This document shows, in pieces, positions 1 through 59,006 of a DNA stretch of 64,000 bases (the stretch's first letter is position 1; each line of letters opens with the position of its first letter). The translations under genes were made by a program, and so were the position numbers. The stretch comes from Craterostigma plantagineum. Lineage: Eukaryota > Streptophyta > Magnoliopsida > Lamiales > Linderniaceae. The notes below the pieces were generated by a model. That model was not told the origin of the DNA. It saw only the letters and a list, made by a program, of their open reading frames with translations, and did not search any database. The stretch is from assembly GCA_027422505.1 (NCBI GenBank), contig JAPQWV010000018.1:17998001-18062000 (forward strand). Reading direction: 5' to 3'.

Positions 1-1637
1 CCATTATGACCGCTCCTGATTGGGGGCTACCTTTTGAACTAATGTGCGATGCTAGTGACTACGCAGTGGGAGCTGTATTGGGGCAGCGAAAGGATAAACA
101 TTTTCGACCAATCTATCATGTAAGTAAGACGTTGGATGCAGCTCAAGCCAATTACACTACCACCGAAAAGGAACTCCTAGCTGTCGTGTTCGCCTTCGAC
201 AAATTCAGGTCATATCTTATTTTAACGAAAGTTATTGTTTTTACTGATCATTCTGCACTTAAGTACTTGCTAGCTAATCCGGATGCAAAGCCTCGACTCA
301 TTAGATGGATTTTACTCCTTCAAGAGTTCGACATCGAGATTCGGGATAAGAAAGGTGCAGAAAACATTGTCGCAGACCACCTCTCTCGACTAGAGGAGCA
401 TGAAATACAAGATACCAACAGAAGGACAATCGTTGATACGTTCCCGGACGAGCATTTCTACGCCGTACGAACAGTAAGCGAAGAAATCCCGTGGTTTGCA
501 GATTTAGCTAACTACCTTGTTGCGAGGATCTTACCTAAGGAGTACACGAGTCAACAAAAGAAGAAATTCTTTTCTGACTTAAGTACTACTTTTGGGAAGA
601 CCCTTATCTTTTCAGGAGATGTGCAAACCAAGTAATCCGAAGGTCCGTTGCTTTCCCCGAAACAATGAAGATTATCGAGCATTGCCACGGCGGACCAACT
701 GGAGGGCATTATGCAGCTAATCGAACCGCCCAAAAGGTACTTGAATGCGGCTTCTATTGGCCGACAATTTTTAAGGATGCTAATATGTACGTCAACACAT
801 GTGACCAATGTCAACGAGCAGGTAACATCTCTAAACGCGATGAAATGCCTCAGAACTTTATCTTAGTTTGCAAAGTGTTCGATGTTTGGGGTATAGACTT
901 TATGGGTCCATTTCCCAGCTCGTACAACAACAAATATATTATTGTGGCTGTTGACTACGTGTCCAAGTGGGCGAAAGCTCAAGCTTTACCCACGAACGAT
1001 GCTAGGGTGGTTGTTAGATTTCTACGAGCATTGTTCTCACGGTTCGGGTCACCTAAATGCATTATTAGTGATAAGGGTACTCATTTTTGCAACATCCAAT
1101 TCGCACGTACCTTAGAAAGATAGGTGTTAAGCATAACACTTCTACTCCTTATCACCCACAAGCAAGTGGTCAAGTAGAAGTAGTTAACCGTGAGTTGAAG
1201 CGCTAGAGAAAACCATAGATGGGAATCGACGGGAATGAGCGAATAAGCTTAACGACGTACTTTGGGCTTATAGGACTACATATAAGACACCAATAGGCAC
1301 TACTCCATATCGACTAGTTTACGGAAAGGCATGTCACCTTCCTGTTGAACTAGAACATAAAGCCTACTGGGCGATAAAGTCTTTAAACCTCGATTTGGTG
1401 CAAGCCGGTGAAAAACGTAAGCTCCAAATCAATGAGCTTGATGAATGGCGTTTGTCGGCATACGACAATACAAAAATGTATACGGTTACTCGCGTTTTTC
1501 CATATGGTAGTGTCGAAATTTCAAATGTTGTGCAGGGAAATTTCAAGGTTAATGGCCAACGACTGAAGCATTATTATGGTGGAGGAGAAGACACGGGCAC
1601 AAAGGAGGTCATGTACCTCGATTTCAAGCTACCGTAG
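1..1637 (+). pseudogene. pol fragment: RNase H and integrase, broken (copy 1)
   Basis: The first open stretch (to 635) is the RNase H domain, with CDAS near the start, [11 protein letters not shown] and the [11 protein letters not shown] segment. Integrase follows in other frames. The HHCC zinc region (HCHGG...H then CDQC) and the first two catalytic acidic positions (DFMGP, SDKGTHF) lie in 665-1123. The acidic residue of the NRELKR segment lies in a further frame, and the C-terminal part in 1395-1637. Reading-frame changes occur near 581, 1121 and 1204, and a stop lies near 1236. The same lesions occur in copy 2, so the damage predates the duplication. No functional integrase can be made from this stretch. 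Confidence 0.9.
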
Positions 1638-2973
1638 AACGAAAAGGTACGTCTGGCTCACGACATTAAAGAAGCGCTTCTTGGGAGGCAACCCAGGTAA
1701 TTGCATTAATTTTAAATAAGTGTGTACCTTAGGAAGTAAAAAAAAATTATAACTGTTGACATACATGGCCACAGACACGGCCGTGCCTAGCCATGTATGA
1801 GCAAGACAATCTCACGGCCTATACACACGGCCACTGACATGGCCGTGTTTGGTTATAAAAAAAAAAAGAAAGAAATGAAAATGAAAAAGTAAAAAAATAA
1901 TAGTAATAATAATAATTAAATATATAAACAAAAAAATATTATTATTATAATAATCATAAATAAATAAAAAAAATAAAAATAAAATAAAAATAAAATAAAA
2001 ATAAAAAAAGAGGCGCGAAATGTACACGGCCACACACATGGCCGTGTTCGTCTCTCTAAAATAATAAAAAAAGAGAGAATTATTAAAAAAAACCAAGAAA
2101 ATTAAAAATATATATTTCTAAATAAAAAAAATATATAATAAAATATATATAAATAAAGAAAAATAATAATCAGACAAAAAAAATAATAAAAAAAATAAAT
2201 AAAAAAAAAACGATTCCTACACGGCCACAAACATGGCTGTGTTTCCTCAATTAAATTCTCACGGCAATGCAACACGGCTATAAACATGGCCGTGTATATT
2301 CGATTCAATTTAAAAAGAAATAATAATGACTTCCTTCTTTAACATCGAATCTTTCACACATCACACACTTCACTCAACCAAACATCAAACCAAATACGAT
2401 TCTCCCGACCCGCGACGAATTCCGGCAACAAGCTTCGGTGAAACTTCCAACATCTATTATCATCGATTTAAGCAAGATAGGTAAAATCATTTACACCCTC
2501 AGTTTCGTTCTTACAAGCTAAACTCGGATTTTTGTTCGTTTCAATCCCCATAGCTTATATATTAGGGATATATGTAGTTCATGAAGTGGGTCTTGCTAAT
2601 TTCGCTTCCATTGCATATGGAATTTCGTGTTTAGTAAGAGCCCTAACTTTAAGATTCGGAAATGCATAATTTTCGTTTATGTTGTTGTTTCAATGCGGGT
2701 TTTCGGTTTGGGAGAAAATATTTCACTAGGAAAACATGATTGGCTAGCTAATTTCAACAATGTCGTTAGTTGAATTCATGTTCATTTTATGTGCATAGCA
2801 CGTGTTCGATGAAATGCCTCACTTGGATTGGGGTTGATTTGTTACCTACTTTTTGGAATTGACGAAGAAAAGCTTGTCTCTTTGTATGGATTATGAAGAT
2901 GATGTTTGATCTAGTTGAGCTAGCTTTGATTTGAACTTTTTTTCTCGAGAATCACATTCACTTTGTAGGTACG
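1638..2973 (+). other. Spacer between pol and extra ORF: AT-rich, with GGCCGTGT motifs
   Basis: No gene. At about 1860-2215 the sequence is almost only A and T on the plus strand (AAATAA-type runs). Short palindromic words such as ACACGGCC/GGCCGTGT recur around 1766-1850, 2020-2050 and 2218-2302. The last 600 bases are ordinary-composition leader before the ORF at 2974. The same GGCC words recur in the LTR (6117-6390), so they are an element-wide motif. Confidence 0.7.
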
Positions 2974-4137
2974 ATGTCTCGACGAAACCCCACACGTGCT
3001 AGCTCCTCCCGCCACCCACGTAACACCACCTCTAGCCCACCGGCACGCAACCGGCGGCTCGGGCCAACGGACACGGTGGATTTGCTAACCTCTATGGCCA
3101 CTTTCACTAGTGACGATGCCCGTGGACAGCGGTACGATAGGCTCAAAGGCATGAAATTCATGCGCACCGATCGACTCCACCGAGAGACCCTTCAACGCCT
3201 CGGCATTGTAACCCAGGTCGACCACTATCTTTCAACGAGTAGTTGGGACGCACTTTTCAGCATCGACGAGCCAGCATACGTGGAACTCACACTGGAGTTC
3301 CTCGCCACCTTCTCATTCGATGAGCACGACTACAAAAGGGTTGTCCGTTTCCGTACCTTTAATAAAGAGCATGTGGTCAGTCTTGATAATTTGTGTAGAG
3401 CGCTCGGTCTCAAAGTCCCAAGCTACGTACACGGCGAACCCGATGCCACCGATAATTACAAGTTCAAGCTCGATGGGACGGACGTGCGGAATGAAATTTG
3501 GCGCGAGATGATACGCCCCCAACTTCTAGGCCGGCCGGAAGCAGATTATAAAAGTACCCAATCGAAGGCTTCCTCGCTAATGATGCCGGGTCTACGATAC
3601 ATCCATCGGCTTTGCACCACCTCCGTCACCGCACGAGGCGAGTCACACGGTGTGGTCACATTACGGGGTCTCTTTTACCTCCACCGCATTCGCAATGGAT
3701 ACAAGGTCCATCTCGGACTAGCTATGGCCCACGGATTCCGGCAGCAATCCGAGGGACGCGAGAAGGGAAAAATCACGGTGGGACCGTTTATCACTAAGCT
3801 GGTGAAAGGATTGGGTTACTGGCCAGACGAGGAGCGCAACATGACAATATTTAATGGATCGAAGCACTTGGATGCCACGGCACTTCACATGATGAAGATG
3901 ATCGAAAAGCTGCCTGAGTGGAAGAAGGAGAACTATTTCTATCGATGGCACGAGGACTACCGAGCATACACCGATATCCCGTTGCCTCTTGCCATGGAAG
4001 GCCCGTTCCCGCATCCAATTGACGAGAGTGCTGGTAGTCATACTGATTCTGCGGTCCGTCCACGTTTAATCGTCGAGATTTCTCTGGTGTCACAACTTAC
4101 GTCGACGACCGACTCGCCGCCCTCCGCGAAGAACTAG
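2974..4137 (+). CDS. Athila ORF1-family protein of the retrotransposon (copy 1)
   Basis: Encodes 387 aa with no function assigned at biochemical level. The central part resembles the ATHILA ORF-1 family: an RLHRETLQRLGI segment, AYVELTLEFLATF, YIHRLCTTSVTARGES, then a GLFYLHRI segment. It lies after integrase, where Athila and related elements often carry an extra, sometimes env-like, ORF. I see no signal peptide and no membrane segment, so an envelope role is not supported. The next frame downstream (4086-4337) encodes a charged, coiled-coil-like tail rich in E, K and R and contains one stop. This suggests the ORF once extended about 65 codons further and was cut by a frameshift. It is nucleotide-identical, as far as I can compare, to 14360-15523. 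Confidence 0.8.
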   Translation: MSRRNPTRASSSRHPRNTTSSPPARNRRLGPTDTVDLLTSMATFTSDDARGQRYDRLKGMKFMRTDRLHRETLQRLGIVTQVDHYLSTSSWDALFSIDEPAYVELTLEFLATFSFDEHDYKRVVRFRTFNKEHVVSLDNLCRALGLKVPSYVHGEPDATDNYKFKLDGTDVRNEIWREMIRPQLLGRPEADYKSTQSKASSLMMPGLRYIHRLCTTSVTARGESHGVVTLRGLFYLHRIRNGYKVHLGLAMAHGFRQQSEGREKGKITVGPFITKLVKGLGYWPDEERNMTIFNGSKHLDATALHMMKMIEKLPEWKKENYFYRWHEDYRAYTDIPLPLAMEGPFPHPIDESAGSHTDSAVRPRLIVEISLVSQLTSTTDSPPSAKN

Positions 4138-12021: not shown

Positions 12022-13023
12022 TCCGAAGGTCCGTTGCTTTCCCCGAAACAATGAAGATTATCGAGCATTGCCACGGCGGACCAACTGGAGGGCATTATGC
12101 AGCTAATCGAACCGCCCAAAAGGTACTTGAATGCGGCTTCTATTGGCCGACAATTTTTAAGGATGCTAATATGTACGTCAACACATGTGACCAATGTCAA
12201 CGAGCAGGTAACATCTCTAAACGCGATGAAATGCCTCAGAACTTTATCTTAGTTTGCAAAGTGTTCGATGTTTGGGGTATAGACTTTATGGGTCCATTTC
12301 CCAGCTCGTACAACAACAAATATATTATTGTGGCTGTTGACTACGTGTCCAAGTGGGCGAAAGCTCAAGCTTTACCCACGAACGATGCTAGGGTGGTTGT
12401 TAGATTTCTACGAGCATTGTTCTCACGGTTCGGGTCACCTAAATGCATTATTAGTGATAAGGGTACTCATTTTTGCAACATCCAATTCGCACGTACCTTA
12501 GAAAGATAGGTGTTAAGCATAACACTTCTACTCCTTATCACCCACAAGCAAGTGGTCAAGTAGAAGTAGTTAACCGTGAGTTGAAGCGCTAGAGAAAACC
12601 ATAGATGGGAATCGACGGGAATGAGCGAATAAGCTTAACGACGTACTTTGGGCTTATAGGACTGCATATAAGACACCAATAGGCACTACTCCATATCGAC
12701 TAGTTTACGGAAAGGCATGTCACCTTCCTGTTGAACTAGAACATAAAGCCTACTGGGCGATAAAGTCTTTAAACCTCGATTTGGTGCAAGCCGGTGAAAA
12801 ACGTAAGCTCCAAATTAATGAGCTTGATGAATGGCGTTTGTCGGCATACGACAATACAAAAATGTATACGGTTACTCGCGTTTTTCCATATGGTAGTGTC
12901 GAAATTTCAAATGTTGAGCAGGGAAATTTCAAGGTTAATGGCCAACGACTGAAGCATTATTATGGTGGAGGAGAAGACACGGGCACAAAGGAGGTCATGT
13001 ACCTCGATTTCAAGCTACCGTAG
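12022..13023 (+). pseudogene. Integrase region, broken (copy 2)
   Basis: Same integrase remains as in copy 1: zinc region and core in 12051-12509, another frame at about 12510-12590, C-terminal part in 12781-13023. Frame changes near 11967, 12507 and 12590 and a stop near 12622 match copy 1 exactly. Only a few point differences separate the copies, for example one changing Val to Glu near 12916 and a synonymous change near 12815. Confidence 0.88.
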
Positions 13024-14359
13024 AACGAAAAGGTACGTCTGGCTCACGACATTAAAGAAGCGCTTCTTGGGAGGCAACCCAGGTAATTGCATTAATTTTA
13101 AATAAGTGTGTACCTTAGGAAGTAAAAAAAAAAATTATAACTGTTGACATACATGGCCACAGACACGGCCGTGCCTAGCCATGTATGAGCAAGACAATCT
13201 CACGGCCTATACACACGGCCACTGACATGGCCGTGTTTGGTTATAAAAAAAAAAGAAAGAAATGAAAATGAAAAAGTAAAAAAATAATAGTAATAATAAT
13301 AATTAAATATATAAACAAAAAAATATTATTATTATAATAATCATAAATAAATAAAAAAAATAAAAATAAAAATAAAAATAAAATAAAATAAAAAAAGAGG
13401 CGCGAAATGTACACGGCCACACACATGGCCGTGTTCGTCTCTCTAAAATAATAAAAAAAGAGAGAATTATTAAAAAAAACCAAGAAAATTAAAAATATAT
13501 ATTTCTAAATAAAAAAATATATAATAAAATATATATAAATAAAGAAAAATAATAATCAGACAAAAAAATAATAAAAAAAATAAATAAAAAAAAAAACGAT
13601 TCCTACACGGCCACAAACATGGCTGTGTTTCCTCAATTAAATTCTCACGGCAATGCAACACGGCTATAAACATGGCCGTGTATATTCGATTCAATTTAAA
13701 AAGAAATAATAATGACTTCCTTCTTTAACATCGAATCTTTCACACATCACACACTTCACTCAACCAAACATCAAACCAAATACGATTCTCCCGACCCGCG
13801 ACGAATTCCGGCAACAAGCTTCGGTGAAACTTCCAACATCTATTATCATCGATTTAAGCAAGATAGGTAAAATCATTTACACCCTCAGTTTCGTTCTTAC
13901 AAGCTAAACTCGGATTTTTGTTCGTTTCAATCCCCATAGCTTATATATTAGGGATATATGTAGTTCATGAAGTGGGTCTTGCTAATTTCGCTTCCATTGC
14001 ATATGGAATTTCGTGTTTAGTAAGAGCCCTAACTTTAAGATTCGGAAATGCATAATTTTCGTTTATGTTGTTGTTTCAATGCGGGTTTTCGGTTTGGGAG
14101 AAAATATTTCACTAGGAAAACATGATTGGCTAGCTAATTTCAACAATGTCGTTAGTTGAATTCATGTTCATTTTATGTGCATAGCACGTGTTCGATGAAA
14201 TGCCTCACTTGGATTGGGGTTGATTTGTTACCTACTTTTTGGAATTGACGAAGAAAAGCTTGTCTCTTTGTATGGATTATGAAGATGATGTTTGATCTAG
14301 TTGAGCTAGCTTTGATTTGAACTTTTTTTCTCGAGAATCACATTCACTTTGTAGGTACG
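13024..14359 (+). other. AT-rich spacer with GGCCGTGT motifs (copy 2)
   Basis: Counterpart of 1638-2973. It differs mainly in the lengths of A runs and AAATA repeats, as expected for slippage-prone sequence. No gene seen. Confidence 0.65.
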
Positions 14360-15523
14360 ATGTCTCGACGAAACCCCACACGTGCTAGCTCCTCCCGCCA
14401 CCCACGTAACACCACCTCTAGCCCACCGGCACGCAACCGGCGGCTCGGGCCAACGGACACGGTGGATTTGCTAACCTCTATGGCCACTTTCACTAGTGAC
14501 GATGCCCGTGGACAGCGGTACGATAGGCTCAAAGGCATGAAATTCATGCGCACCGATCGACTCCACCGAGAGACCCTTCAACGCCTCGGCATTGTAACCC
14601 AGGTCGACCACTATCTTTCAACGAGTAGTTGGGACGCACTTTTCAGCATCGACGAGCCAGCATACGTGGAACTCACACTGGAGTTCCTCGCCACCTTCTC
14701 ATTCGATGAGCACGACTACAAAAGGGTTGTCCGTTTCCGTACCTTTAATAAAGAGCATGTGGTCAGTCTTGATAATTTGTGTAGAGCGCTCGGTCTCAAA
14801 GTCCCAAGCTACGTACACGGCGAACCCGATGCCACCGATAATTACAAGTTCAAGCTCGATGGGACGGACGTGCGGAATGAAATTTGGCGCGAGATGATAC
14901 GCCCCCAACTTCTAGGCCGGCCGGAAGCAGATTATAAAAGTACCCAATCGAAGGCTTCCTCGCTAATGATGCCGGGTCTACGATACATCCATCGGCTTTG
15001 CACCACCTCCGTCACCGCACGAGGCGAGTCACACGGTGTGGTCACATTACGGGGTCTCTTTTACCTCCACCGCATTCGCAATGGATACAAGGTCCATCTC
15101 GGACTAGCTATGGCCCACGGATTCCGGCAGCAATCCGAGGGACGCGAGAAGGGAAAAATCACGGTGGGACCGTTTATCACTAAGCTGGTGAAAGGATTGG
15201 GTTACTGGCCAGACGAGGAGCGCAACATGACAATATTTAATGGATCGAAGCACTTGGATGCCACGGCACTTCACATGATGAAGATGATCGAAAAGCTGCC
15301 TGAGTGGAAGAAGGAGAACTATTTCTATCGATGGCACGAGGACTACCGAGCATACACCGATATCCCGTTGCCTCTTGCCATGGAAGGCCCGTTCCCGCAT
15401 CCAATTGACGAGAGTGCTGGTAGTCATACTGATTCTGCGGTCCGTCCACGTTTAATCGTCGAGATTTCTCTGGTGTCACAACTTACGTCGACGACCGACT
15501 CGCCGCCCTCCGCGAAGAACTAG
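14360..15523 (+). CDS. Athila ORF1-family protein of the retrotransposon (copy 2)
   Basis: 387 aa, the same protein as at 2974-4137. It carries the ATHILA ORF-1-like core (LHRETLQRLGI, ELTLEFLATF, YIHRLCTTS) and lies after integrase. As in copy 1, a charged coiled-coil-like tail continues in another frame to about 15723. Function is unknown. The ORF has stayed open while gag and integrase collapsed, but the perfect match to copy 1 is more simply explained by recent duplication than by selection. Confidence 0.8.
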   Translation: MSRRNPTRASSSRHPRNTTSSPPARNRRLGPTDTVDLLTSMATFTSDDARGQRYDRLKGMKFMRTDRLHRETLQRLGIVTQVDHYLSTSSWDALFSIDEPAYVELTLEFLATFSFDEHDYKRVVRFRTFNKEHVVSLDNLCRALGLKVPSYVHGEPDATDNYKFKLDGTDVRNEIWREMIRPQLLGRPEADYKSTQSKASSLMMPGLRYIHRLCTTSVTARGESHGVVTLRGLFYLHRIRNGYKVHLGLAMAHGFRQQSEGREKGKITVGPFITKLVKGLGYWPDEERNMTIFNGSKHLDATALHMMKMIEKLPEWKKENYFYRWHEDYRAYTDIPLPLAMEGPFPHPIDESAGSHTDSAVRPRLIVEISLVSQLTSTTDSPPSAKN

Positions 15524-43695: not shown

Positions 43696-43704
43696 TATAT
43701 TAAA
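43696..43704. repeat. Left 9-bp target-site duplication of MULE
   Basis: TATATTAAA, identical to 55167-55175. Nine bases is the standard Mutator-superfamily duplication length. Confidence 0.95.
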
Positions 43705-43850
43705 GGGTAAATTCCTTATCAGTCCCACTTGAAGTTTAAACTTTCTCTTAAATACCCCTCGAATTATTTATTCCTGATCAGTATCCATCTGTGAAAAGTT
43801 TCATATTTAATACCCCAAACATTGAAATGACGGAAATAACCTTTCTTTAG
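43705..43850. repeat. Left terminal inverted repeat of MULE
   Basis: About 145 bp, GGGTAAATTCCTTATCAGTC onward. It matches the reverse complement of 55025-55166 with roughly 85% identity by eye, including CACTTGAAGTTTAAACTT and AAATACCCCTCGAATTATTT. Confidence 0.9.
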
Positions 43851-45450
43851 AATTGCTTAACAATTTTCAGAATATTATATCATGAGACGCGATTATTATA
43901 CCAAGAAAAGATGTTATTATACTAGAAAAATTTATACTATTTTACCAATAGACATAGTTATACCAACAGTGGACTATCATATCCAGTAAAATTTAAGAGT
44001 ATTACACCAATAGATGTCAAAATTATACTAAGAAATAAGAGTTATCATACGAATTGATCTTTCTACATTATACACAAAGACGAAAATTTTACCATCAAAA
44101 TCCAAAATTTCACCAACAAAATATTCAAAAAATTGTACCTAAAATTAGTTAATTATACCATATGTTGTCAACATTATACCAGTAAATAATGTAATTTTAA
44201 ATTATTTTTATATCTGAAATAATCAAATTATACAACAAACACCGTCAATTATACCAACAAACACGAAAAATTTAACCATAAAAATATTCTGAAAATTATA
44301 CCAGTAGAGCGTAACATTATACCAACAAACCAATTTATTACATTATGATTTTTCAGTCCAATTTCTGACAATTATACTAACAGAAGTTGAATATTATACC
44401 AACTGTTTCAGTTATTATACTTAAAAACACTACATATGAAATTATACTCACAGGCGTCAACATTATACCAACAAATCAACTAATTATTCCTAGAAAGAAT
44501 TACAGAATTTTACCATTATATGTTGAAATTTTACCGAAATACCAACTAATTATACCACAAAAACCTCAATAGAATTATACCACGTGTTGTCAACATTATA
44601 CCAGTAAATATTGTAATTTTAAATTATTTATAAATCTGATATAATCAAATTATACCACAAACACCGTCAATTATACCAACAAACACGAAAAATTTAACCA
44701 TAAAAATATTCTGAAAATTATACCAGTAGAGCGTAACATTATACCAATAAACCAATTTATTACATTATGATTTTTCAATCCAATTTCTGACAATTATAAT
44801 AACAGAAGTTGAATATTATACCAACTGTTTCAGTTATTATACTTAAAAACACTACATATGAAATTATACTCACATGCGTCAACATTATACCAACAAATCA
44901 ACTACTTATACCTAGAAAGAATTACAGAATTTTACCATTATATGTTGAAATTTTACCGAAATACGAACTAATTATACCACGAAAACCTCAATAGAATTAT
45001 ACCACGTGTTGTCAACATTATACCAGTAAATATTGTAATTTTAAATTATTTATAAATCTGATATAATCAAATTATACCACAAACACCGTCAATTATACCA
45101 ACAAACACGAAAATTTAACCATAAAAATATTCTGAAAATTATACCAGTAGAGCGTAACATTATACCAACAAACCAATTTATTACATTATGATTTTTCAAT
45201 CCAATTTCTGGCAATTATACTAACAGAAGTTGAATATTATACCAACTGTTTCAGTTATTATACTTAAAAACACTGCATATTAAATTATACTCACAGGCGT
45301 CAACATTATACCAACAAATCAACTAATTATACCTAGGAAGAATTACAGAATTTTACCATTATATGTTGCAATTTTACCGAAATACCAACTAATTATACCA
45401 CGAAAACTCAATAGAATTATACCACGTGTTGTCAACAAATTACCACGTTA
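43851..45450. repeat. Left outer subterminal array, octamer TTATACCA
   Basis: Dozens of TTATACCA words, nearly all in this orientation. Within it three tandem units of about 422 bp (44159-44580, 44581-45002, 45003-45422) are nearly identical, each carrying many octamers and the phrase CACGTGTTGTCAACATTATA. Spurious ORFs at 44387 and 44809 are translations of these units. Confidence 0.9.
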
Positions 45451-46600
45451 CGCCAACAAACTCAATTATAATAACTGGTATAATAACACAAACAGACGGT
45501 ATAATGTCAACAATTACTGGTATAATTTGAGAATTAGTTGGTATAACGTCCAATTTCAATGTATAAAATTAAAATAACTGGTATAATAACGAAATCAGAT
45601 GGTATAATTTCAACAATTCCTGGTATAATTTCAAAATCAGTTGGTATAAATGTCCAATTCCCTGTATAAAATTAAAATAACTGGTATAATAACGGACGAC
45701 GGTATAATTTCTACAGTTTGGTATAATTTCAATATCAGTTGGTATTATTGTCCAATTCGCTGTGTAAAATTAAAATAACTGGTATAATAACGCAAACAGA
45801 TGGTATAATTACTACAATTAATGGTATCATTTCAAAATGAGTTGGTATAAATGTCCAATTCGCTGTATTAAATTGAAAAACTGGTAGAATAACGCGAACA
45901 GATGGTATAATTTCTACCATTTCTGGTATAATTTCAACGGCAGTTGGTATAACATCCAATTTCACTGTATAAATTTAAAATAACTGGTATAATAACAAAA
46001 GGAGATGGTATAGTTTCAGCAATTCCTGGTACTTTTAGAATCAGTTGGTATGACGTCCAATTTCACTGTAAAATTAGAATAACTGGTATAATAACACAAA
46101 CAGATGGTATAGTTTCAACAATTACTGGTATAATTTCAAATTCAGTTGGTATAACGCACAATTTCACTGTATAAAATTAAAATAACTGGTATAATAACAA
46201 AAGGAGATGGTTTAGTTTCAGCAATTTCTGGTATAATTTTAGAATCAGTTGGTATGACGTCCAATTTCACTGTAAAATTTAAATAACTGGTATAATTTCA
46301 ATAGTTTGTGGTATAATTTCCAACATTACTGGTATAATTTCAAAATCAGTTGGTATAACGTCCAATTTCACTGTATAAAATTCGATCAAAGTTGCACATA
46401 CATTTACCAAATGATTCCAAATTATACCACGAAAGACAAATCATATACCAATAAAGGGTAATATTATACCATCAAGAAACTTTAGAAATTTACCAATAAT
46501 CGGTAACATTATTTTTCCGACCAATTTCTAACTATTATACCAGTACCTTCCGACATTATACCAGATGTACTCGAAGATAAGTATTTCGCAGAAGTAAAAA
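45451..46600. repeat. Left inner subterminal array, inverted octamer TGGTATAA
   Basis: The octamer flips to TGGTATAA at about 45475. Around nine tandem units of about 100 bp (e.g. starting 45470, 45573, 45676, 45774) have the pattern AATAACTGGTATAATAAC, then CAGATGGTATAATTTC and CAGTTGGTATAACGTCCAAT. After 46390 a few TTATACCA words return. Confidence 0.88.
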
Positions 46601-46904
46601 AGTTTGTACTTAACACTGAAAAAACAATTTCAACCTAATTGCAACATTAGAACGAAAGGAAGAATAATTCCATCGGTGTTGCGAGGGGAAACCAGGCGTC
46701 GACATTCGATCGGGAACAAGAAAAGCTCAACATCTCTTGTAATCGTGTATTTCGCTGCTGGAAGGTGCGAAACAATTCGTGATTTCGTAGAGCAATTTTT
46801 CGTCAATTTGGTATTTTATTATGGTCTTCTCGTCGAATTGGTGCGTTATTAGGTTTAATATCGTAGTGATTTGGTTATTACTTGTGCCCAGGTAGAATTT
46901 CAAA
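46601..46904 (+). other. Presumed promoter/leader of the Ulp1-like gene
   Basis: Ordinary-composition sequence between the octamer array and the ATG. No clear TATA box identified. Confidence 0.35.
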
Positions 46905-49772
46905 ATGCCGAAGAAGAATAAAGAATTGGTGAACCCCAACGACGAGGCTGTGGGGACTAAACGTAGCCGTTGTCATGTCAACTGTTTTAGAGGCCTTATG
47001 GAGACGGTGATAAAAACGGCCAGTGAGGAGCAGGTTCGAGCTGTAATGCGGTGCCCGTTTTCTCATTTTTTGAAAATACCTCGTATGGAAATACCAACTG
47101 GGCGTTTAGAAGGGATTTTGAGCCGGTTTAGTGAAGACTTTTCTGATTTTAGGTTTGGAAAGAATCATATTGTTCCATTTGAAAAACAAGCTTTTTCTAT
47201 GTTTCTTGGACTGAGGTGTGAAGGAGAGCATGTTGTAGATAATATAATGGTGAGTAAGGATATGTCTTTCCTTCGCCGTTGTTTCGCGGAAAGGAAGATA
47301 TACACTCTTACTAGGTCCGATATCACAAATGCCTTAGAAAGAAATACTGAAGGAGCAGGATTGGGTAGTGATGACTTTGTGCGTTGTTACATTTTATATG
47401 TATTTAGTTGTATCTTGTTTCCGACTTCCACGTATAACCTGCCGTCGTACCTCCTCGCTTACGTGGATAATTTGGGGGGAATTGGAAGTTTTGCGTGCGG
47501 TGCTGCAGTGCATCAGTTTTTGCTGAAATCGATGCGTTCAAAGAGGATGTACGTGGAAGGATGTACATACGGTTTGTTGGTAAGTTATGGGTCTTTAATT
47601 TATTCTGAAGAGACGTAGATTTGAATATACTTGTTCTTAGTTGTGTTGATTTATCTATGATGTTGCAGATTTGGGTGTTCGAGCATTGTCCCTCGGTAGG
47701 GAAGAAGTGTGGGCTGTACGAAGTACCCCGTTGTCTGCGTTGGGTGGATCCGACGACACGTCCTAAGTTAAAGGACGTGGAGAAGCCGTTTGATGCGTTG
47801 GAGCCACATCAAATACTTCAAATATTTCCATCAGTCGAAGAGCAAGTATTTGTAACGATGCCAATGACGGTTGAAGATATCGTGGCACAACGGTATACCG
47901 ATGCGGCAGCGTACCTACAAGAGATAGAACAATTAAGGGCAACGAATTCGAAGTTGGAAGGCATGGTCGAGTACTTAAGGAGACCTAACGAGCTGAACAA
48001 AGTGATGGAAGAAGAGGATAATCGGGGGGAAGAAGATGCCGTGCCCGATAGTATAAGTTTAACTGATGTGGTGCCCGACGGTATAAGTTTGATTGATGTT
48101 CCTATCAAGTTCGAGGAGATAGTAGTTTGCATGTCCCCAAATAGGGGAGGAGCACATAGAGAGTATGATTACACCGTGGAGTACGTTGGAGACGAAGGTG
48201 GACACGATGTGAGCGTAGAAGAAGGCATGCGAGGGACAGATGTAGGGACAGGTAGAGATGATTTGGGCACTGAAGAAGGAAGAAGAATGGAAGGTACAGA
48301 TGATGTGGGCAACGAAGATGGGGTGCCCGAAGGTGAGGGAAGTTGGTGCGCTGAGCAAGCTGCGGTTGAGAGCGTCCGTCGCTTTGGTAAAGTCTTTGGA
48401 CGAAGGAAGAATAATGAAACCAAAGAAGATAGCTCCATTGTCGAAGATGTCGTAGGCAGGAGAGACAGAAAGCCAAGAAAGGATTCGTTGTTCGTGACGC
48501 CTCCTGGATCGACTACACCTGCGAAGAAGTTGAGGCGTACGCGAAAGGGAAAGGTATTTACTATGCTGTTCTTTAACCATTAATTTAATTCAACTTTTGT
48601 GTATAATCGAAAACTTCATTTTCACAGGAGAAGTTGATTGAAATTGAATCTGATGATGAGGCGGGTTTGATAATTGAAAAAGAACGTCACGAAGCTAAGA
48701 AAGCTGCATTAATGCAGAAGTATTATATGTCGAGGTCTTATCCAGGCAGAGACTGCTTGGACGGGGATCGTAGGAACTTGGTTGATGCTTTTTTTGACCA
48801 AGATGATTTTACGTAAGTAAAGATTGATCATATCTTTTATGTTGTTGCGTACAATCTGCGTTTGATTCGACATTTATGTGTAGGTCAACCGTGTTCGCAA
48901 ACGGACCGTCGCAGGTGACCGGTGAGCTACTCATCAATTTGTTTGGGTGAGCCCATTCAAGGCGATATCATCGATTCATGGTTCCAATACATTACTCCAC
49001 CGGTTTACCAAGCACGGAACAATGTCTTTGGTATTGTAAGATTTCTCACAACACATGTCACGGTGAGTATAGTTTACCTACTTGATAGTAAATTTGTTTT
49101 CATTAACTTCATAATAATAGATACTAACTTATTACATCGCTCTGCAGGCTAATTTCTTGGACATTTTGGGGCAGCGGAGAAATAAAAAATTTCCCGATAA
49201 GGACGTGAAAAGTATGTCCTTTGACAATAAGTTGTTACCCTACGTGCTCGGACAGTTAAAAATATTGGAAAACTATGACTTGTCTAAGATGCGAGCTATA
49301 GTTATGCCAATTAATACGAAATTCCACTGGCATCTGCTTATTTTCCTCCCACAAGACAGCATTTTCCGTCATTATACGTCCTTGCAATCCCCCCAATATC
49401 GGTCAGACAGTGAGCTCGTCGTAAGTTCCCTATGAATTACTGTTTTTGATATATATTGATTGGTATAGATGTACCATTTACACGTTTGCTTTTGTTGTTA
49501 AATTTCAGGCCACGCTGTTCGCGCAATACCTCAACGTTCGACATAAACAGAAATTAGCAACTAAGAACAACGTCGAGCATGTAAAATGTCGACAACAAGC
49601 GGAGGGCTCCATGGACTGTGGCACGCTTGTATGCATGTGGGCTGATTCCGTGTTGAAGGACAACATCGCTGGTTGGGATTACGTGGAAGAAGCTGGCGAT
49701 GTTCAAGAATTCCGTGTCATTATCGCATCTGGGATTCTGTCCCACGCTAAGAGTTGTCGAAAAGCGGACTGA
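46905..49772 (+). CDS. MULE-borne Ulp1/C48-like cysteine protease
   Basis: Model: exons 46905-47579, 47669-48553, 48628-48812, 48884-49062, 49148-49420, 49509-49772, all GT-AG. The N-terminal ~225 aa helical domain (CPFSHFLKIPRMEIPTGRLE) resembles domains preceding Ulp1 in plant transposons. Exon 2 has an acidic linker with a duplicated VPD(S/G)ISL phrase. The C-terminal part is the protease: GDIIDSWFQYI, then FHWHLLIF with catalytic His at 49325-49327, and QQAEGSMDCGTL with Gln and Cys (49617-49619). The usual Asp is Thr (49376-49378). Exon 4 needs a one-base frame change near 48945 to stay open, or an acceptor at 48926. It may therefore be damaged. Ulp1 proteases remove SUMO-like tags; the role here is unknown. 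Confidence 0.72.
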
Positions 49773-50708
49773 ACGTTACAACTAGGATAATATATTGTGG
49801 TTTTATTTTGGAAAATTATGTGATGCTGGTGTTTATTTTGTGGGATATCGCATCTGGGATTTTGTGGGCTGATGTTTATTTTGCGAAATGGCAGTGGACA
49901 AGATTTAGGACAAGATGTTATGGAATGATTGTTGAATTACTAGACTGGTGTTTATTTTGTTTGTTGGCAATGAACAATTGTAAGGTCAGATGTTTGTGGG
50001 TTTAAGTGTTTAATATGTCGATCTTCTTTTTGAAATTGGATTACTAAGCAAACTTAACTTCGATTATACTACATATGTTTTCATTTTTGTTATTATACCA
50101 ATACTAACGGAATAAAACCATATCATTTAGCAATTAACTTGATTCTTTAGCAAACTTACTTGATTCTTATATATACTTTGTCAATTTCACTTACTTGATT
50201 CTTTAGCAAACTTACTTATGCCAGCAAACTTAGTCGATTCTTATACATAAGGTTAAACAAGTATATCTATATTATTAATGCATTATAATTCTTGGACATA
50301 ACTTGATTATGTTGATACGCTTTGAGTTTGTTATGATACTAACATTAATCGACTTATAAGTAAAATATAAAGATTTATAATTATGAACGATTATGATAAT
50401 AGTGTATACAATTATGATAATGCGGCTTTACAAACATAATCAACTGAAAGAGCGGTTTATTATACAAATAGTTGATATAATTATACCAATAAAAAAGGTG
50501 AATTTAGTAATGCGATTTTAGTAATATTGTGGCACAGTGAATGCCACTCATCAATTATGATATGATAATGCGCTTTTAGTAATATTTCCCGCTCATAAAA
50601 AAGGTGAATCCCGCTCACTAATTAGTGGGTAAAGTGAAATTGTGGCACAGTAAAAACCCCAATTGACCTTCCTTCGAAGCCCCAATTTGTCTGCAACTAC
50701 CCACTAAA
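49773..50708. other. Spacer between Ulp1-like and transposase genes
   Basis: 3' flank and AT-rich DNA with scattered TTATACCA-like words near 50090 and 50460-50480. Two near-repeats of AATGCG(A/C)TTTTAGTAATAT lie near 50510 and 50570. No gene. Confidence 0.45.
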
Positions 50709-52713
50709 ATGAGCATTGTTGAGCACCATTTATGTCTTTGTACATTCAACAATGACGATTATGTCCTTGCAGTTCCTCAAGATTCCTCACTGCGGGACCT
50801 ACAACAACTGCTGCATACTAGATGGCCCATGTTACAGAATAACCCAGCAAATTTCAGATACAAGATGCCGTCGACTTGCTATAAGAGTAGCTTACTCAAT
50901 GAAGAAGATTTCGCCAACATGTTTTCCGTCCATCAAAGATTTGGAAATCAGATGATACATATCTTTGTCGAAATAGACGCTCAGAGCTCGAGAAACACCC
51001 CCGAACAGATTGCGCTAGACGACGATCTCCCAGAAGACTTAGATGATGTGTTGCCTAATGGAAAATGGACAGCTTGCATAACAGGTGTTGGGCAGCTGTT
51101 TGTTGATGCAGTCCAATTTCGAAGCAAACTGAAAAAATATTCGATTTCTAGGGGCAAGGAAAAAATATTTGACGACACATTTGCAATACGCAATTGTAAT
51201 CTTGAACACAATTGTGGCAGTTCGAATTTGTTGTCGAGAGACCATCCGAAAGCTGGCAGATATTGGGTGGCTGAGTTAGTCAAACAGAAATTGCGAAGTG
51301 ATCCACTCTATAAACCTTGCAATCTGAAAGCTGACATCCTCGAAGAAAACGGGGTCGAGATTCCATATCGAAGAGCATGGGAAGGTCGAGAGAAAGCCAT
51401 TCAACAAATACACGGTGGTGATCGTGAGTCGTACGAGAAACTCGGTTGGTATTGTCGTAAAGTGATTGAAACTAATCCAGGCAGCTTTGCTTGTTGTGAG
51501 ATACTCGCAGAATCGAAAAAATTCCGAAGATTATTCCTAAGTTTTGCGGCTTGCGCTATTGGATTTATGAGAGGATGCAGACCAATAGTATTCTTAGATG
51601 GGACACACATCAAAAGTAAATACAAGGGTACATTGCTTAGTGCTACATCGAAGGACGCAAACGACGGGCTGTTCACCATAGCATATGCAGTTGTTGACAA
51701 TGAGAACAATGACAATTGGGAATGGTTTTGCAGCAAATTACGGGAGGTTTTTAGCTATCATGGGAACAATGATTACACACGGTTTACATTCTTCTCAGAC
51801 CGTCATAATGGTCTCTTGAACGGTGTCCCGCTCGTTTTCCCTGAGAGTAACCATGCTTACTGTCTGCGGCACTTAGTCGACAATTTCAAGACGGATGTCG
51901 TGATCAAGCACTCGTTTAAAGAAACAGAGAAGTGGAAATAAGTGTTCAAAGCAGCTGCGTCCCCGACGCAACAAGGTTTTGTCACAAATACCAATCTAAT
52001 TTTGGAGAAATTCAAGGAGCACGGTGCCCTATCCTTAGTAACTCCAAACCCGATCATTGGGCTAACTCACTCTTTACAGGCATGCGTTGGGTGTGATGAA
52101 CAATAATGTTGCTGAGTCGTGGAATCATTGGGTAAAATCGGCGAGATTCTTGCCCGTGCTCGGGTTAATTGATGAAATCCGCAGAAATATTATGGTGACG
52201 ATGAGCACAAGACGGGAGGATGCGGTTAAAATGAGTGGAATTATATGTGTGAATCAAGAGAAGAAGCTCAGTAACAAGATTAGCGGGGCGCGGAAGTTAC
52301 GTGTTGAGCAGTCAAGCAACTACATCTTCGAAGTGGCCGATGGAGGACATACTTATGCTGTGGACTTGAGCGGACGGACATGCTCTTGAAAATGGTACCA
52401 AATTGAGGGTATTCCTTGTAAGCATGTATGTGCATGCATAAGCACGTTACAACTATCGCCCTACGAGTTTTGCGATGCATTATATGGCGTTCACAGATAT
52501 AAGGAGGCATACATGCAGGTCTTGTATCCAATTCCTACGCACGAAATGGATAAGGTGACGGTAACTGACGCTATCAATGCCCCGGATGTTCGCCGCCCGC
52601 CGGGTCGTAGAAGGACAATCAGAATTCCATCACAAACTGATGTTAGGGCATTAAAGTGTGGACGATTTTCCAGCCTGGGTCACAATCGTAGATCCTGCAA
52701 AGAGCCCATGTGA
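50709..52713 (+). pseudogene. MULE transposase (mudrA type), decayed
   Basis: First ORF 50709-51941 (410 aa) holds the N-terminal region, a MuDR-like domain, and the start of the MULE transposase core, with catalytic Asp in FLDGTHIK (~297) and FFSDRHNG (~364). It is cut by TAA at 51939-51941 within an otherwise continuing frame. The frame then changes near 52025 and again near 52092. The catalytic Glu lies in NNVAESWNHW (52114-52116). A SWIM zinc finger (EGIPCKHVCACI) is broken by TGA at 52387-52389. The C-terminal zinc knuckle is degenerate (KCGRF then GHNRRSC). Two stops and two frame changes rule out an active protein, so movement would need a transposase from elsewhere. Confidence 0.9.
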
Positions 52714-52929
52714 AGGTAAATGTAGGTATGTATAAATTTCAGGCATACGTGTGGGTATGTATATTTTGCTGACTGTTCTGGAATGTCAGGTACATATTTT
52801 TGTTATTGCTTAGTGCTTGTAAAACTTTGATGGCATGGGTGTGGGTATGTATATTTTGCTGATTCTTTTGGAATGTCAGGTAGTTATCTTGATGTACTGC
52901 TTGGTGCTTGTAAACATTTGATGCTATGA
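52714..52929. other. Transposase 3' flank with a ~110-bp direct duplication
   Basis: Two copies of a segment starting GTGTGGGTATGTATATTTTGC (near 52749 and 52838) and ending with GTGCTTGTAAA. Confidence 0.6.
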
Positions 52930-54362
52930 TATCTAAGCATGTTGGTATTTTTCGAATTTGGTATGATAATCAAAGTTGTTGGTTTAATAATTTGAGATAA
53001 AATAATCAGAACTGATAGTATAATTAGGTCTTCTGTTGACAAAATAAATAAGGGTACTAAAATTTATACAAAAAAATTGGAGATTATACCAACTAATTTT
53101 GCTATTATACCAGAAATTTGAGATTACCATCTATTTTCGTTATTATTCCAATAAATAAGGGTACTAAAATATTCTACAGCGAAATTGAATTATATACCAA
53201 ATAATTTTTACAATTACACCAGAAATTGTGAAATTATACTATATACTTTCGTTATTATACCATCTTTCTTCGTTATTATGCCAATAAATATAGTTATATT
53301 AATTTTATACAGAAATATCGGAGATTATACCAACTAATTTTGCTATTATACCAGAAATTGAGGAGATTATACCATCTATTTTCGTTATTATACCAATAAA
53401 TATTGTTATTTTAATTTTCTACAGCGAAACTGAATTATATACCAACTAATTTTTGCAATTACACCAGAAATTGTGAAAATTATACCATATACTTTTGTTA
53501 TTATACCATCTTTCTTCGTTATTATGCCAATAAATATAGTTATATTAATTTTATACAGAAAAATTGGAGATTATACCAACTAATTTTGCTATTATACCAG
53601 AAATTGAGGAGATTATACCATCTATTTTCGTTATTATACCAATAAATATTGTTATTTTAATTTTCTACAGCAAAGTTGAATTATATACCAACTAATTTGT
53701 GCAATTACACCAGAAATTGTGAAAATTATACCATATACTTTCGTTATTATACCATCTTTCTTCGTTATTATGCCAATAAATATAGTTATACTAATTTTAT
53801 ACAGAAAAATTGGAGATTATACCAACTAATTTTGCTATTATACCAGAAATTGAGGAGATTACACCATCTATTTTCGTTATTATACCAATAAATATTGTTA
53901 TTTTAATTTTATACAGCGAAATTGAATTATATACCAACTAATTTGTGCAATTACACCAGAAATTGTGAAAATTATACCATATACTTTCGTTATTATACCA
54001 TCTTTCTTCGTTATTATGCCAATAAATATAGTTATATTAATTTTATACAGAGAAATTGGAGATTATACCAGCTAATTTGCTATTATACCAGAAATTGAGG
54101 AGACTATACCATCTATTTTCGTTATTATACCAATAAATATTGTTATTTTAATTTTATACAGCGAAATTGAATTACATACCAACTAATTTTTGCAATTATA
54201 CCAGAAATTACGAAAATTATACCATATATTTTCGTTATTATACCATCTTTCTTCGTTATTATGCCAATAAATATAGTTATATTAATTTTATACAGCAAAA
54301 TTGGAGATTATACCAACTAATTTTGCTATTATACCAGGAACTTTGTAAATTATACCATAATA
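52930..54362. repeat. Right inner subterminal array, octamer TTATACCA
   Basis: Five tandem units of about 246 bp, with marker TTCGTTATTATACCAATAAA at 53381, 53627, 53873 and 54118 (53136 slightly diverged). Each carries about seven TTATACCA-type words. Octamer orientation is opposite to the left inner array. Confidence 0.9.
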
Positions 54363-55015
54363 ATTAGGTGCTCTAATTGTAAAATAATCTTGTGTATGGG
54401 TAGGATAACCAATTGTATTAGTATAATTAGATCTTTTATTGGTATTATAATTGTTAAAATCATTCAGTATTTGTTCGTATAATAACCAAAACTGTTGGTA
54501 TAATCGTATCATGTGTTGGTATATTTATATGCACATTTAGTCAAATATATGGTGGTATAATAAACAAGTTTTTTGGTACGATGTTATACAATGTAATTCG
54601 GGTAGAATAGCTAAAACAGTTGGTATAATGCGATCTTTTGTTGGTATAATAGTTAGAAATTGAATGGAAAAATAATAATATAAAAATGAGTTTATTGGTA
54701 TAATAATTGAATTTATTGGTATAATTATCTGAATATTTGTTGGTATAATATTCCCTTTTGTTGGTATAATATATGCCGTTCGTGGTATGATGTGCAAAGA
54801 TTATTTCATATATAAAAATTATAATAACACTATTTGTTGGTATAATAATAATAATAATTTATAATAATTTTTAATTTGACTTGGTATAAAAAGTGAAACA
54901 ATTGGTATATTATCTATTTTTATTGGTAGAATTATATGTTCGATTTTGGGTATAATTAGTTGTTTCCATGGTATAATACTTGCTACATGTGATGTAATAA
55001 TCTGAAAGTTTTTTA
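54363..55015. repeat. Right outer subterminal array, inverted octamer TGGTATAA
   Basis: About twenty TGGTATAA-type words in mainly one orientation, less regular than the other arrays, running up to the right terminal inverted repeat. Confidence 0.85.
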
Positions 55016-55024
55016 AATCCTTAT

Positions 55025-55166
55025 GGAAGGGTTATTTTCGTCTTTTCAAGCGTTTGGGGTATTAAACAGGAAACTTTTAACAGAAGGATACTGAACAGGA
55101 AGAAATAATTCGAGGGGTATTTAAGAGGAAGTTTAAACTTCAAGTGGGACTGATAAGAATTTACCC
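55025..55166. repeat. Right terminal inverted repeat of MULE
   Basis: Ends GAATTTACCC at 55166, complementary to the left GGGTAAATTC. See the left repeat for the extent of match. Confidence 0.9.
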
Positions 55167-55175
55167 TATATTAAA
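55167..55175. repeat. Right 9-bp target-site duplication of MULE
   Basis: TATATTAAA, identical to 43696-43704. Confidence 0.95.
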
Positions 55176-56394: not shown

Positions 56395-59006
56395 TGAAGA
56401 TTTGTGCCATCAACCAAGGTCGGGAGGTAGCCAAGAAGGAATCTGGGGGATCTGTGCCAATCAAAGGCAGACAACCCCCACCTCCTCTAGATAGGACCAG
56501 CTCCATTTAAGGCTCAGCCTCAAGCCAAGCTCTACGCTGGCAAAGGTCCACAGGACCTCAAAGTCCAGCTCCGGGCTGGCATCCGGAGATCCCAGGGAGG
56601 TCGAGGTCCTCCTCTGCACTGGCATATGAAAAGCCACGGGGATTTAAAAGCCCAGCTCCCCGCTGGCACGAAGACCTACAGTCCAGCTCCGCGCTGACAT
56701 GAAGGCCCTAACTCCAGGGGACCTAAAGACAAGCTCCTTGCTGAAAACGAGGACATGATCCGTGTCTTTGAGATCTCCATGCTGAGTTCCTCGCCAGTAT
56801 GCGAAGTTCGTTATAAGAGATCTCCAAACAAGCTGAAACCTAGCTCCGTGCTGGTTGAAAGCAAAGAAGTCAAGCTCTAGGCTGACACGTGAAGGTCCAG
56901 GGGACCTAGAAGATAGCTCCATGCTGACATCCAAACCTCCGGAGATCTGGAGCCGGGGACCTCGTCATTAACAGAGAAGAAAGGAGCTCCATATCTCCGT
57001 TACTTTCAAAATTCTAGGCCTCCACAAGGAGCCCGGATACTAAGCGAGCTGGCGCTATATCCATGCATTTAAGCGAGCTGGCGCTATATCCACACATTTA
57101 AGCGTGCTGGCGCTATATCCACGCATTTAAGCGAGCTGGCGCTATAACCACGCATTTAAGCGAGCTGGCGCTATAACCACGCCCTTAAGCGAGCGGGCGC
57201 TATAACCACGCACTTAAGCGGGCTGGCGCTATAACCATGCACTTAAGCGAGCGGGCGCTATAACCACGCGTTCAAGCAAAGCTGGCGCTATAACCAAGTC
57301 GATACCAAAGGTCGACGGACCTGTGGCGTACAAAGACATCAAAGACTGATAGTCTGCGACGTGAGACGATGCCAAAGACCGACGGGTCGGCGGTGTACCT
57401 GACATCAAAGGCCACAGGTCTGCGACGTGAAAGATGCCCATGAGGGCGTACAAGATGCCACCGCTGACGGGCTGTGGTGTACAGGACATCAAAGGTCCTC
57501 AGTAAGGCCTGCGACGTGAATAGGTGCCTCAGCGTAGCTGGTGCTATAACCAGGGTAAAACAGTGGGAGAGATCCCCACTTCATACTTAAGACCTTCGGG
57601 CCTACATTACTGAACTCGCTGAGGACAAAGAGAGCCTAACGCAAAGCGACACCCGAGGACAATGACGACAGTCATTGCAACCAAGGGCGTGAATTCGTAC
57701 TTAGCTTACGAATTGAATAAACGAGTTGGCGCTATAACCATGCCACGATAATGATGTTCCCGGAAACATCATCAGGTCCCGCGAAAGAAAATATAATACG
57801 AGGAGGAAGGGAACTCCGATTAAACTTACATTCATGGGGAGTTAAGCTCCCCAAGTCCTTACCATCGTATCTCGAAAGGAAAAAATGACAAAATATTTCT
57901 TACAGGCCGTCACCACCCTGAAAAAGGCAAAAGGGAACTCGGAGATACGTACAACGGGACCTAGGGACCTCCTTACAAGTGAAAAGGCTCGAAGAGGAGC
58001 TCCCCCATCAGGTCCCCGCCAGGGGAGTTGAGCTCCCCTAAAACATCGCAGGTCCTAGGATGGCCGAAAGGCCTTCCACTAAGTCCTCTGAGGAGCTGGA
58101 GATGACGTCTGGGAGATCGTAGCATGGGCCAGGGCCTCCACGTGCTCCTTCGAGGTGCCAACCCAGAAACGAGGACTCCCAGGAGCTTGGGGACCTCATT
58201 CAAAGCAAGCCAAATGCACCATCTTCATACGCGCGAAATCGACATCTCACTCTTCCTTCTCCTTAGTGAAGGAGCTCCAGAGATCCTCATCGCGCTATCT
58301 CATAAGAGCTGCATTTCTATCTTTCCCTCTCCAGGGAGCTCTGCAGTTCCCTCTCGTACTAATCCATTGACTTTGTCTAATCAGCTATCCCCAGGTCCCG
58401 GGTTGACGACTTGGCGGACGGTCCGGTAGCTACCCACCACCTGGGGGATGATCTCTGAACGTTTGGGAGCACCTAACGACCTAACAAGCTCATCTTTTCA
58501 CCTATGTTCAGATGGTCCACAGAAGTAGGGAGCTCAGCCACTGAGGTCCCCATAGGTCCCGTGAGAGGCTCAACATATTCACCCCAAGGGGAAGAAGGAC
58601 ATAACTTCCTTTTTGTGTTTCTTTCTGACCATTTGTTGAAGTTGTTTTCATGTTAACACAAAAAACAAGGGCTGTGATACTTGAGTTTCCCTAATAGGAG
58701 AAGGAACCACGGGGACGTCTGTCGTCCCTACAAAAGGAGGAATCTCCTTGCAAACATCCCGTGCCACCAGGACCCGAGGGAGCAAGGGAGCTAGGAGCAA
58801 CGTACAACAGAACCTGGGGATCTCCTTCAATAATGCAATGTTCGAAGAGGAGCTCTACCATCAGGTCTCCACTAGACGTGCATAGGGGAGTTAAGCTCCC
58901 CAAAAACCAATGGGGTCCTAAACCTTCAAGAGGTAATTACGGTAGGGAGGTAACGCCCATCTTACTATTTTACTCGAATTCACTTTTGTCCCAAAAGACA
59001 AATTAG
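56395..59006 (+). mobile_element. 3' region of a Tat/Ogre-like gypsy element, no coding domains
   Basis: GC-richer, highly repetitive DNA. It holds diverged ~50-bp repeats around CCAGCTCCGCGCTGGCA-type words (56505-56940), a minisatellite (57042-57298), and paired segments such as CCATCAGGTCCCCGCCAGGG (58006) against a related one at 58857. No gag or pol found; ORFs here are short and not recognised. It ends at a polypurine tract and an LTR. Plant Tat/Ogre elements often carry tandem repeats just before the 3' LTR, which is the basis for the assignment; the 5' part is absent from the window. Confidence 0.5.
57042..57298. repeat. 29-bp minisatellite, about nine units
   Basis: Unit AAGCGAGCTGGCGCTATAAC plus CACGCATTT, with point variants (TATATCC in the first units, TATAACC in later ones). 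Lone derived units lie near 57530 and 57722. Confidence 0.92.

Follow-up and report, generated by a model that had tools for sequence, protein, structure and literature searches.

The closest described systems to the transposon considered here are the VANDAL elements VANDAL21 and VANDAL6 of Arabidopsis (Hosaka et al. 2017, PMC5735166; Sasaki et al. 2023, PMC10398659). The VANC21 protein of VANDAL21 binds the word YAGTATTAY in vivo and in vitro, and its motifs lie in non-coding regions, often as tandem repeats with many motifs in one orientation (PMC5735166). VANC21 and VANC6 cause DNA methylation to be lost, each from a different set of elements, the VANC6 motifs are different, and it has been proposed that motif and protein change together; the VANC proteins carry the DUF1985 domain (PMC5735166). 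We compare with them an 11,462-bp Mutator-like element (MULE) at positions 43705-55166 of a 64,000-nucleotide stretch of Craterostigma plantagineum DNA (GenBank assembly GCA_027422505.1, contig JAPQWV010000018.1, positions 17,998,001 to 18,062,000 of the forward strand; hereafter the window). Both arms of this element carry arrays of one octamer, written TTATACCA in one orientation and TGGTATAA in the other. We consider it probable, at roughly 0.78, that the arrays are docking sites of the element's own VANC-like DUF1985 protein, which would lift the silencing of the element, because the word, its spacing, the protein homology, the conservation of the word and the association between word and protein all fit. 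The principle is already known from the Arabidopsis VANDALs.

Inside the element there are 100 exact octamers, 64 as TTATACCA and 36 as TGGTATAA, and in the rest of the window there is a single TTATACCA, at 27245. The original prediction that the octamer forms polarity-switching arrays in both arms, in large numbers, is borne out by four arrays, each with 11 to 29 copies that all face the same way, far above the mean of 300 dinucleotide shuffles per block, which is nowhere higher than 0.34. The left outer array (43851-45463, plus strand) has 29 TTATACCA and no TGGTATAA, where shuffling gives 0.34 and 0.03; the left inner array (45464-46382, minus strand) has no TTATACCA and 25 TGGTATAA (shuffled, 0.05 and 0.16); the right inner array (53063-54360, plus strand) has 29 and none (0.28 and 0.04); and the right outer array (54361-55015, minus strand) has none and 11 (0.02 and 0.21). 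Six further TTATACCA had escaped the original prediction, four in the gene-proximal stretch 46383-46904 (plus strand) beside the first gene and two isolated copies, at 50093 and 50481, in the intergenic stretch 50093-50488 (plus strand). The arrays are dense runs of a single short word, each in one orientation, in non-coding DNA and with tandem units. Tandem Repeats Finder confirmed units of 422 bp in the left outer array (3.1 copies), 103 bp in the left inner array (9 copies; predicted as about 100 bp) and 246 bp in the right inner array, and it listed no long unit in the right outer array, which is irregular.

The two arms are diverged inverted repeats, since the left inner array matches the reverse complement of the right inner array at 67% over 1084 bp and the left outer array matches that of the right outer array at 70% over 400 bp, while the left inner and left outer arrays have just 72 bp at 75% in common. 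The mirror symmetry therefore extends beyond the terminal inverted repeats (TIRs), as had been proposed. Counted from the octamer positions, one 422-bp unit contains nine octamers and one 246-bp unit contains six, so that the copy number of the units alone fails to explain the counts. This bears on the simplest explanation, plain growth of tandem repeats, by which the octamer would be frequent merely through the copying of units that contain it. Three of the four arrays do have higher-order tandem units, as that explanation would have it. Against it, the units hold several octamers with different spacers, the left outer and left inner arrays share so little and yet have the same octamer, octamers diverge less than spacers, and the 21-bp spacing described below recurs with other words in other clades. 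We regard it as very improbable.

Octamer sites differ among sister copies at 0.043-0.050 per site and spacer sites at 0.088-0.125, giving an octamer-to-spacer ratio of 0.36-0.52, or spacers that change 1.9 to 2.8 times faster. For this comparison the octamer positions were set on a reference copy and compared among the other copies, in four runs on two copy sets, and the octamer was the less diverged in 34 of 36, 34 of 36, 28 of 28 and 27 of 28 copy pairs. Runs with a shifted mask (0.17-0.25) were unfiltered, and they are not comparable and do not serve as a direct control. Together with the several octamers in each unit, the ratio supports the earlier view that the octamer, and not the unit, is what has been kept. 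The same result weakens the idea that silencing small RNAs act on the arrays or arise from them, or that the arrays form a fold-back structure, so that the octamer would have no protein reader. The inverted homology of the arms would suit such a role, and tandem repeats can feed RNA-directed DNA methylation (RdDM), RdDM and VANC acting on common non-coding regions in Arabidopsis (PMC10398659). Silencing by homology, however, requires neither a conserved 8-bp word among faster-changing spacers nor a preference for 21-bp spacing, and we consider this explanation improbable. The fold-back proposed originally is accordingly real as a property of the arm sequence, through its inverted homology, but does not account for the conservation of the octamer.

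Successive exact copies on the same strand are most often 21 bp apart, a distance found in 38 of the 91 gaps shorter than 130 bp (24 of 57 plus 14 of 34). Pairs at exactly 21 bp number 23,282 in the whole genome (11681 + 11601), with none in the reversed-pattern control, as against 2,658 pairs (1284 + 1374) for the ten spacings from 22 to 31 bp combined, for which the reversed control gave 30 + 28. A motif-free test, which took the best repeated 5-mer at each of 21 spacings (12-32 bp), was applied to 49 DUF1985 loci; five of the 54 available loci had been dropped, L016, L030, L033 and L037 as fragments of an included element and L034 as 5'-truncated. A spacing of 21 bp was strictly best in 37 of the 49 loci; among control pieces taken from the window it came out best in 1 of 20 and in 1 of 33. 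Elsewhere, at G000:C1:3375518-3375808 and like places, a family with TTATACCATACCAAAACTCATGTAAG units has octamers 26 bp apart together with an extra TACCA, and is apparently another type of array.

The first gene of the element begins with an open reading frame (ORF) at 46905-47618 (plus strand), the predicted exon 1 of a VANC-like DUF1985/PMD protein. When an 11-row profile of the DUF1985 domains of this genome was searched against 177,635 distinct sequences of the PDB, the sole match at E<=10 was VANC21 (9lnj, 9lnk), at E=0.0017; with two further rows from the family called H below, the 13-row profile, which contains the window's own domain, again matched only VANC21 at E<=10, at E=0.0002. 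Each of the original 11 rows has matches to both DUF1985 and PMD at E<=0.05. The open frame continues at 47642-48583 (plus strand) as an acidic variable region that matched no Pfam family and has a repeated peptide, encoded by a 30-bp DNA repeat at 48041-48099; repeated peptides are likewise frequent in the variable regions of VANC proteins (PMC5735166). The splice between these two frames, like the exon borders in general, was judged by eye. A Ulp1-type region follows at 49148-49772 (plus strand), where two open pieces joined by hand match Peptidase_C48 (PF02902) at E=5.3e-8 and were linked to the DUF1985 ORF by a splice also judged by eye. DUF287, which the legend of Fig. 5 of PMC5735166 shows for VANC proteins, had no match in the ORF pieces scanned with Pfam, a scan that did not extend to the short predicted exons at 48.6-49.1 kb. 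A search of 5.8 billion proteins with the DUF1985 ORF returned 111 candidates, none at E<=0.001, and a structure prediction for the window's ORF, made from the single sequence without an alignment, had a mean pLDDT (predicted local distance difference test score) of 34 and was not used. The transposase ORF lies on the same strand at 50709-51941 (plus) and matches PF10551 at E=1.9e-20, above the gathering score. By eye, and by comparison with the open frames of relatives, the transposase similarity continues past 51941 in other frames, and this copy of the transposase therefore looks decayed.

Most of the further DUF1985 clades sampled have short words of their own, arrayed at 21 bp (23 bp in one family). 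The search of the genome with the DUF1985 ORF gave at least 152 matches, 150 of the 1,749 candidates having been scored. Eight or more octamers were present within 1.5 kb upstream in 27 of 30 loci that were cut out, some of the 30 being pieces of one element, and no octamer was present within 1.5 kb upstream of L016, L030 and L034. In 24 further loci, chosen for divergence, octamer arrays were found in two (L051 and L052, with at least eight octamers within 2.5 kb); the other 22, outside clade A, had no octamer array upstream (0-2 octamers in 21 of them and 4 in L043). Another word was found upstream in 11 of these 22: RTAACA in arrays of 22-30 copies against 0-3 in the opposite orientation (L042, L044, L046, L049, L053 and L061), AATAAC (L047), GTAAC (L048 and L055) and RTACCA (L056 and L062). 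The spacing of 21 bp was strictly best in 10 of the 11, a simple repeat scoring higher in L061. Nine non-A loci had no fitting word upstream. For two of these nine, of clade N, the sequence downstream was fetched as well, and in each of them TACCA is arrayed at 21 bp between the DUF1985 gene and the transposase gene, with 51 lattice pairs in one and 54 in the other; the label of no array given to clade N was overturned by these arrays, found in both of the two loci fetched. On a DUF1985 tree of 43 rows the array labels need 7 changes (minimum 5), whereas shuffled labels need 25.6 on average and none of 200 shuffles was as low; the tree uses the old clade N label, the contrast is inflated by its near-copies, and an association of this kind would follow from linkage alone. 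Eleven of the 54 loci were left out of the tree as fragments, duplicates or sequences of fewer than 140 residues.

Some loci stand apart from these patterns. GGTATA is enriched upstream of L043 and L058 (13 and 7 copies against 0.6 expected) with no 21-bp lattice, and L054 has a tandem array of TCACGGCC upstream at 22 bp, unlike its sister L047. The DUF1985 stretches of L018 and L019 are identical over 702 bp at different places, and the copying that produced them is therefore probably recent.

The alternative that has to be taken most seriously is that the element's transposase binds the octamer and that the arrays help to bring the two ends together for excision. The subterminal motif repeats of Spm/En provide a parallel. 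The arrays lie in both arms, are mirrored and start at the inner edge of the TIRs; two short TIR-bearing derivatives, described below, retain them; and 49 of 100 transposase places have a DUF1985 match on their own strand no more than 12 kb upstream, which links the transposase to the DUF1985 genes and through them to the arrays. A set of 100 sites, nearly all of them spread over about 5 kb and some beside and between genes, is nevertheless more than the recognition of ends should need. The arrays of families N and H lie between the DUF1985 and transposase genes, in elements whose ends are unmapped, and it is a relative of the DUF1985 protein that has been published to bind arrays of this type (PMC5735166). 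On balance we think it unlikely that the transposase is the reader. The original prediction had named a transposase, a protease complex, silencing and fold-back as possible roles; the look of a binding site has held up, and the evidence favours the element's own VANC-like DUF1985 protein instead.

A negative control had been planned with four relatives of the MULE transposase, from the band of 51-57% identity, which were thought to lack DUF1985; in that band 0 of 24 transposase relatives have a listed DUF1985 match within 12 kb upstream. The octamer is present in none of the four, and their scores at 21 bp are 0-2, which is the shuffle level (upstream of L065, 21 bp ranks first with 2 pairs). 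Three of the four have a spacing of 23 bp. The two control elements that were followed, L064+L067 (C57:3015332-3026331) and L066+L068 (C15:3674692-3685691), form family H, and each carries a DUF1985 gene on the opposite strand, downstream of the transposase. Their arrays consist of TTTGGTAC at 23 bp, the length of 36 of the 45 successive intervals in one element. This shows that the pitch can change between families.

Several observations weigh against docking by the DUF1985 protein. The four relatives had to be rejected as a DUF1985-free set, and the control failed to separate DUF1985 from the transposase as the reader, because both of the elements followed carry DUF1985 and 23-bp arrays. Word and protein are also inherited together, so that an association between them is no proof of binding, and linkage extends to the transposase as well. 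The copy pairs of the divergence test share copies and are not independent, the repeats are hard to align, and gene conversion could mimic selection. A spacing of 21 bp was not the best in 12 of the 49 loci (L039, L040, L041, L043, L045, L050, L054, L057, L058, L059, L060 and L061). Strict helical phasing at 10.5 bp was rejected, since the gaps beyond the adjacent pair are unphased (vector strength of the longer gaps, 0.37-0.57) and the pitch of family H is 23 bp. The window's protein by itself matches no PDB chain, the match to VANC21 coming from the family profile, and its Pfam matches to PMD (7.5e-5) and DUF1985 (0.0085) are both under the gathering score. The octamer agrees with the VANC21 word YAGTATTAY at 6 of 8 positions (P=0.11). 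A 9-mer, chosen afterwards, agrees at 7 of 9 (P=0.04), a score that 190 of 3,431 other 9-mers of the arms equal; we therefore set homology of the words aside as suggestive only. Neither octamer nor 9-mer resembles the VANC6 words (AGTTGTCC/AC). Finally, the TIRs are long, unlike those of VANDALs.

Polarity looks secondary. The switch that was predicted exists in the arms of the window element, but not upstream of 15 clade-A loci: in 13 of them every octamer of the gene-adjacent array is a TTATACCA, and L020 and L036 each have a single copy facing the other way; the stretch examined was 1.5 kb (2.5 kb in L051 and L052), and a switch further out is possible. In 14 other clade-A loci, or 12 without the duplicates L033 and L037, the gene-adjacent array is mainly TGGTATAA. 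Five TTATACCA-oriented arrays of the sister subfamily matched, within the window, the reverse complement of the right outer array best and the left outer array next. Polarity was set aside as a functional feature because the two inner arrays of the window element's subfamily are homologous in inverted orientation and because, in the 1.5-2.5 kb covered, the genes of the sister subfamily (clade A2) have arrays of one orientation upstream, except for one copy each in two loci. One decayed partial copy, L028, has a protein that groups with the TGGTATAA-array set and an array that reads like the TTATACCA set.

If the arrays are docking sites of the DUF1985 protein, this protein, and not the transposase, would read the word, ATTATACCA with its usual leading A. 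Because the sites are densely packed, at distances of about two helical turns, many copies of the protein would be able to sit side by side, which could give specificity for so short a word. Once bound, the protein would cause the element to lose DNA methylation, an effect published for VANC21 and VANC6, and silencing marks would be stripped from the element and from its shorter relatives. A joint change of word and protein would then separate families that share one nucleus.

Two short derivatives could profit in this way. The one at C1:480871-482686 (1,816 bp) has the right TIR of the window element at 96-97% on both of its ends, with 11 + 20 octamers and no exact target duplication, and the one at C1:127528-128278 (751 bp) has TIRs 70-74% like those of the window element, the 9-bp duplication TAAATAGAA and 9 + 2 octamers. 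In neither does a match to the coding sequence of the window element exceed 150 bp. The first pairs listed put arrays at about 13 places within the initial 3.4 Mb of contig 1, a density that, if it applied throughout, would mean thousands of array places in the genome.

The ends of the element were located by local alignment of the left end with the reverse complement of the right end. The TIRs are imperfect and about 200 bp long, the left one (43705-43903, plus strand) beginning with GGGTAAATT at 43705 and its inverted copy (54969-55166, minus strand) ending at 55166, and the 9-bp target-site duplication TATATTAAA is exact on both flanks (43696-43704 and 55167-55175). The element thus has a transposase domain and TIRs with a 9-bp target duplication, as a MULE does, and is wider than the interval 43851-55015 of the original prediction. 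It resembles VANDAL21 and VANDAL6 in having a DUF1985 gene and a transposase, short-word arrays of one orientation in non-coding DNA, units that turn over and a word that varies with the VANC protein. It differs from them in its word, its TIRs of about 200 bp and its Ulp1 region. Degenerated TIRs are described as a VANDAL trait (PMC10398659), and most likely the element works like a VANDAL-VANC system yet should not be filed as a VANDAL, because its long TIRs do not fit and its word differs. MULEs that bear Ulp1, including KAONASHI (KI), are described from Arabidopsis, melon, rice and grapevine, and the KI-MULEs are non-TIR elements with ULP opposite to mudrA (PMC2528002, PMC13317346). VANC genes with Ulp1 have also been described, the KI genes being counted among them (PMC13317346). 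The window element likewise is a MULE with a Ulp1-type domain, here in the DUF1985 gene, but it has long TIRs and both genes in the same direction; the opposite-strand layout is found in family H. In the grapevine transposon paper, which includes the Ulp1-bearing MULEs, the words 'tandem' and 'subterminal' are absent (PMC2528002).

Outside the element, ORFs and tandem repeats of the stretch 665-4137 come back at a distance of about 11.39 kb, in 12051-15523 (the ORFs 2974-4137 and 14360-15523 are one example), as they would if a retrotransposon region lay there in two tandem copies. A 29-bp tandem array of 8.8 copies lies at 57041-57296. A more distant parallel for the arrays is Spm/En, in which a short word, the TNPA subterminal repeat, recurs in the element ends; Spm/En belongs to a different superfamily and has far fewer sites than the window element. 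The likeness also lies in an element protein whose activity goes with demethylation, TNPA activation of Spm being mentioned in PMC10398659.

As far as the literature compared shows, the octamer itself, its long-TIR carriers and the parallel word/protein pairs within one genome are new, as are the 21-bp lattice with its 23-bp exception and an RTA(C/A)C core that several families in the same genome have in common. Sasaki et al. (2022, EMBO J e110070) reportedly found several VANC systems per genome in eudicots, with specificity set by word sequence, density and helical spacing, and that work may cover parts of these findings. The core variants seen here are ATTATACCA, RTACCA, GTACCAAA, ATAACAA, AGTAAC and AATAAC. 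Tentatively, and with less than even confidence, we suggest that nearly every family of DUF1985-bearing MULEs reads its own variant of an R-T-A-(C/A)-C core at a family pitch of 21 or 23 bp, so that word and pitch would make a two-part key by which each DUF1985 protein would coat and free no arrays but its own, with polarity free and a large crowd of short gene-less copies riding along. The questions addressed are how a short word could lift the silencing of a whole transposon, and how word and protein could change jointly without passing through a broken stage. The presence of VANC-like genes in long-TIR elements also bears on the proposal that VANDALs escaped RNA-directed methylation by losing their TIRs (PMC10398659). 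One genome offers at least six candidate word/protein pairs, with cores as little as one base apart (TACCA versus TAACA) and with two spacings, and the recognition rule and the role of the spacing could be tested by exchanging proteins and arrays.

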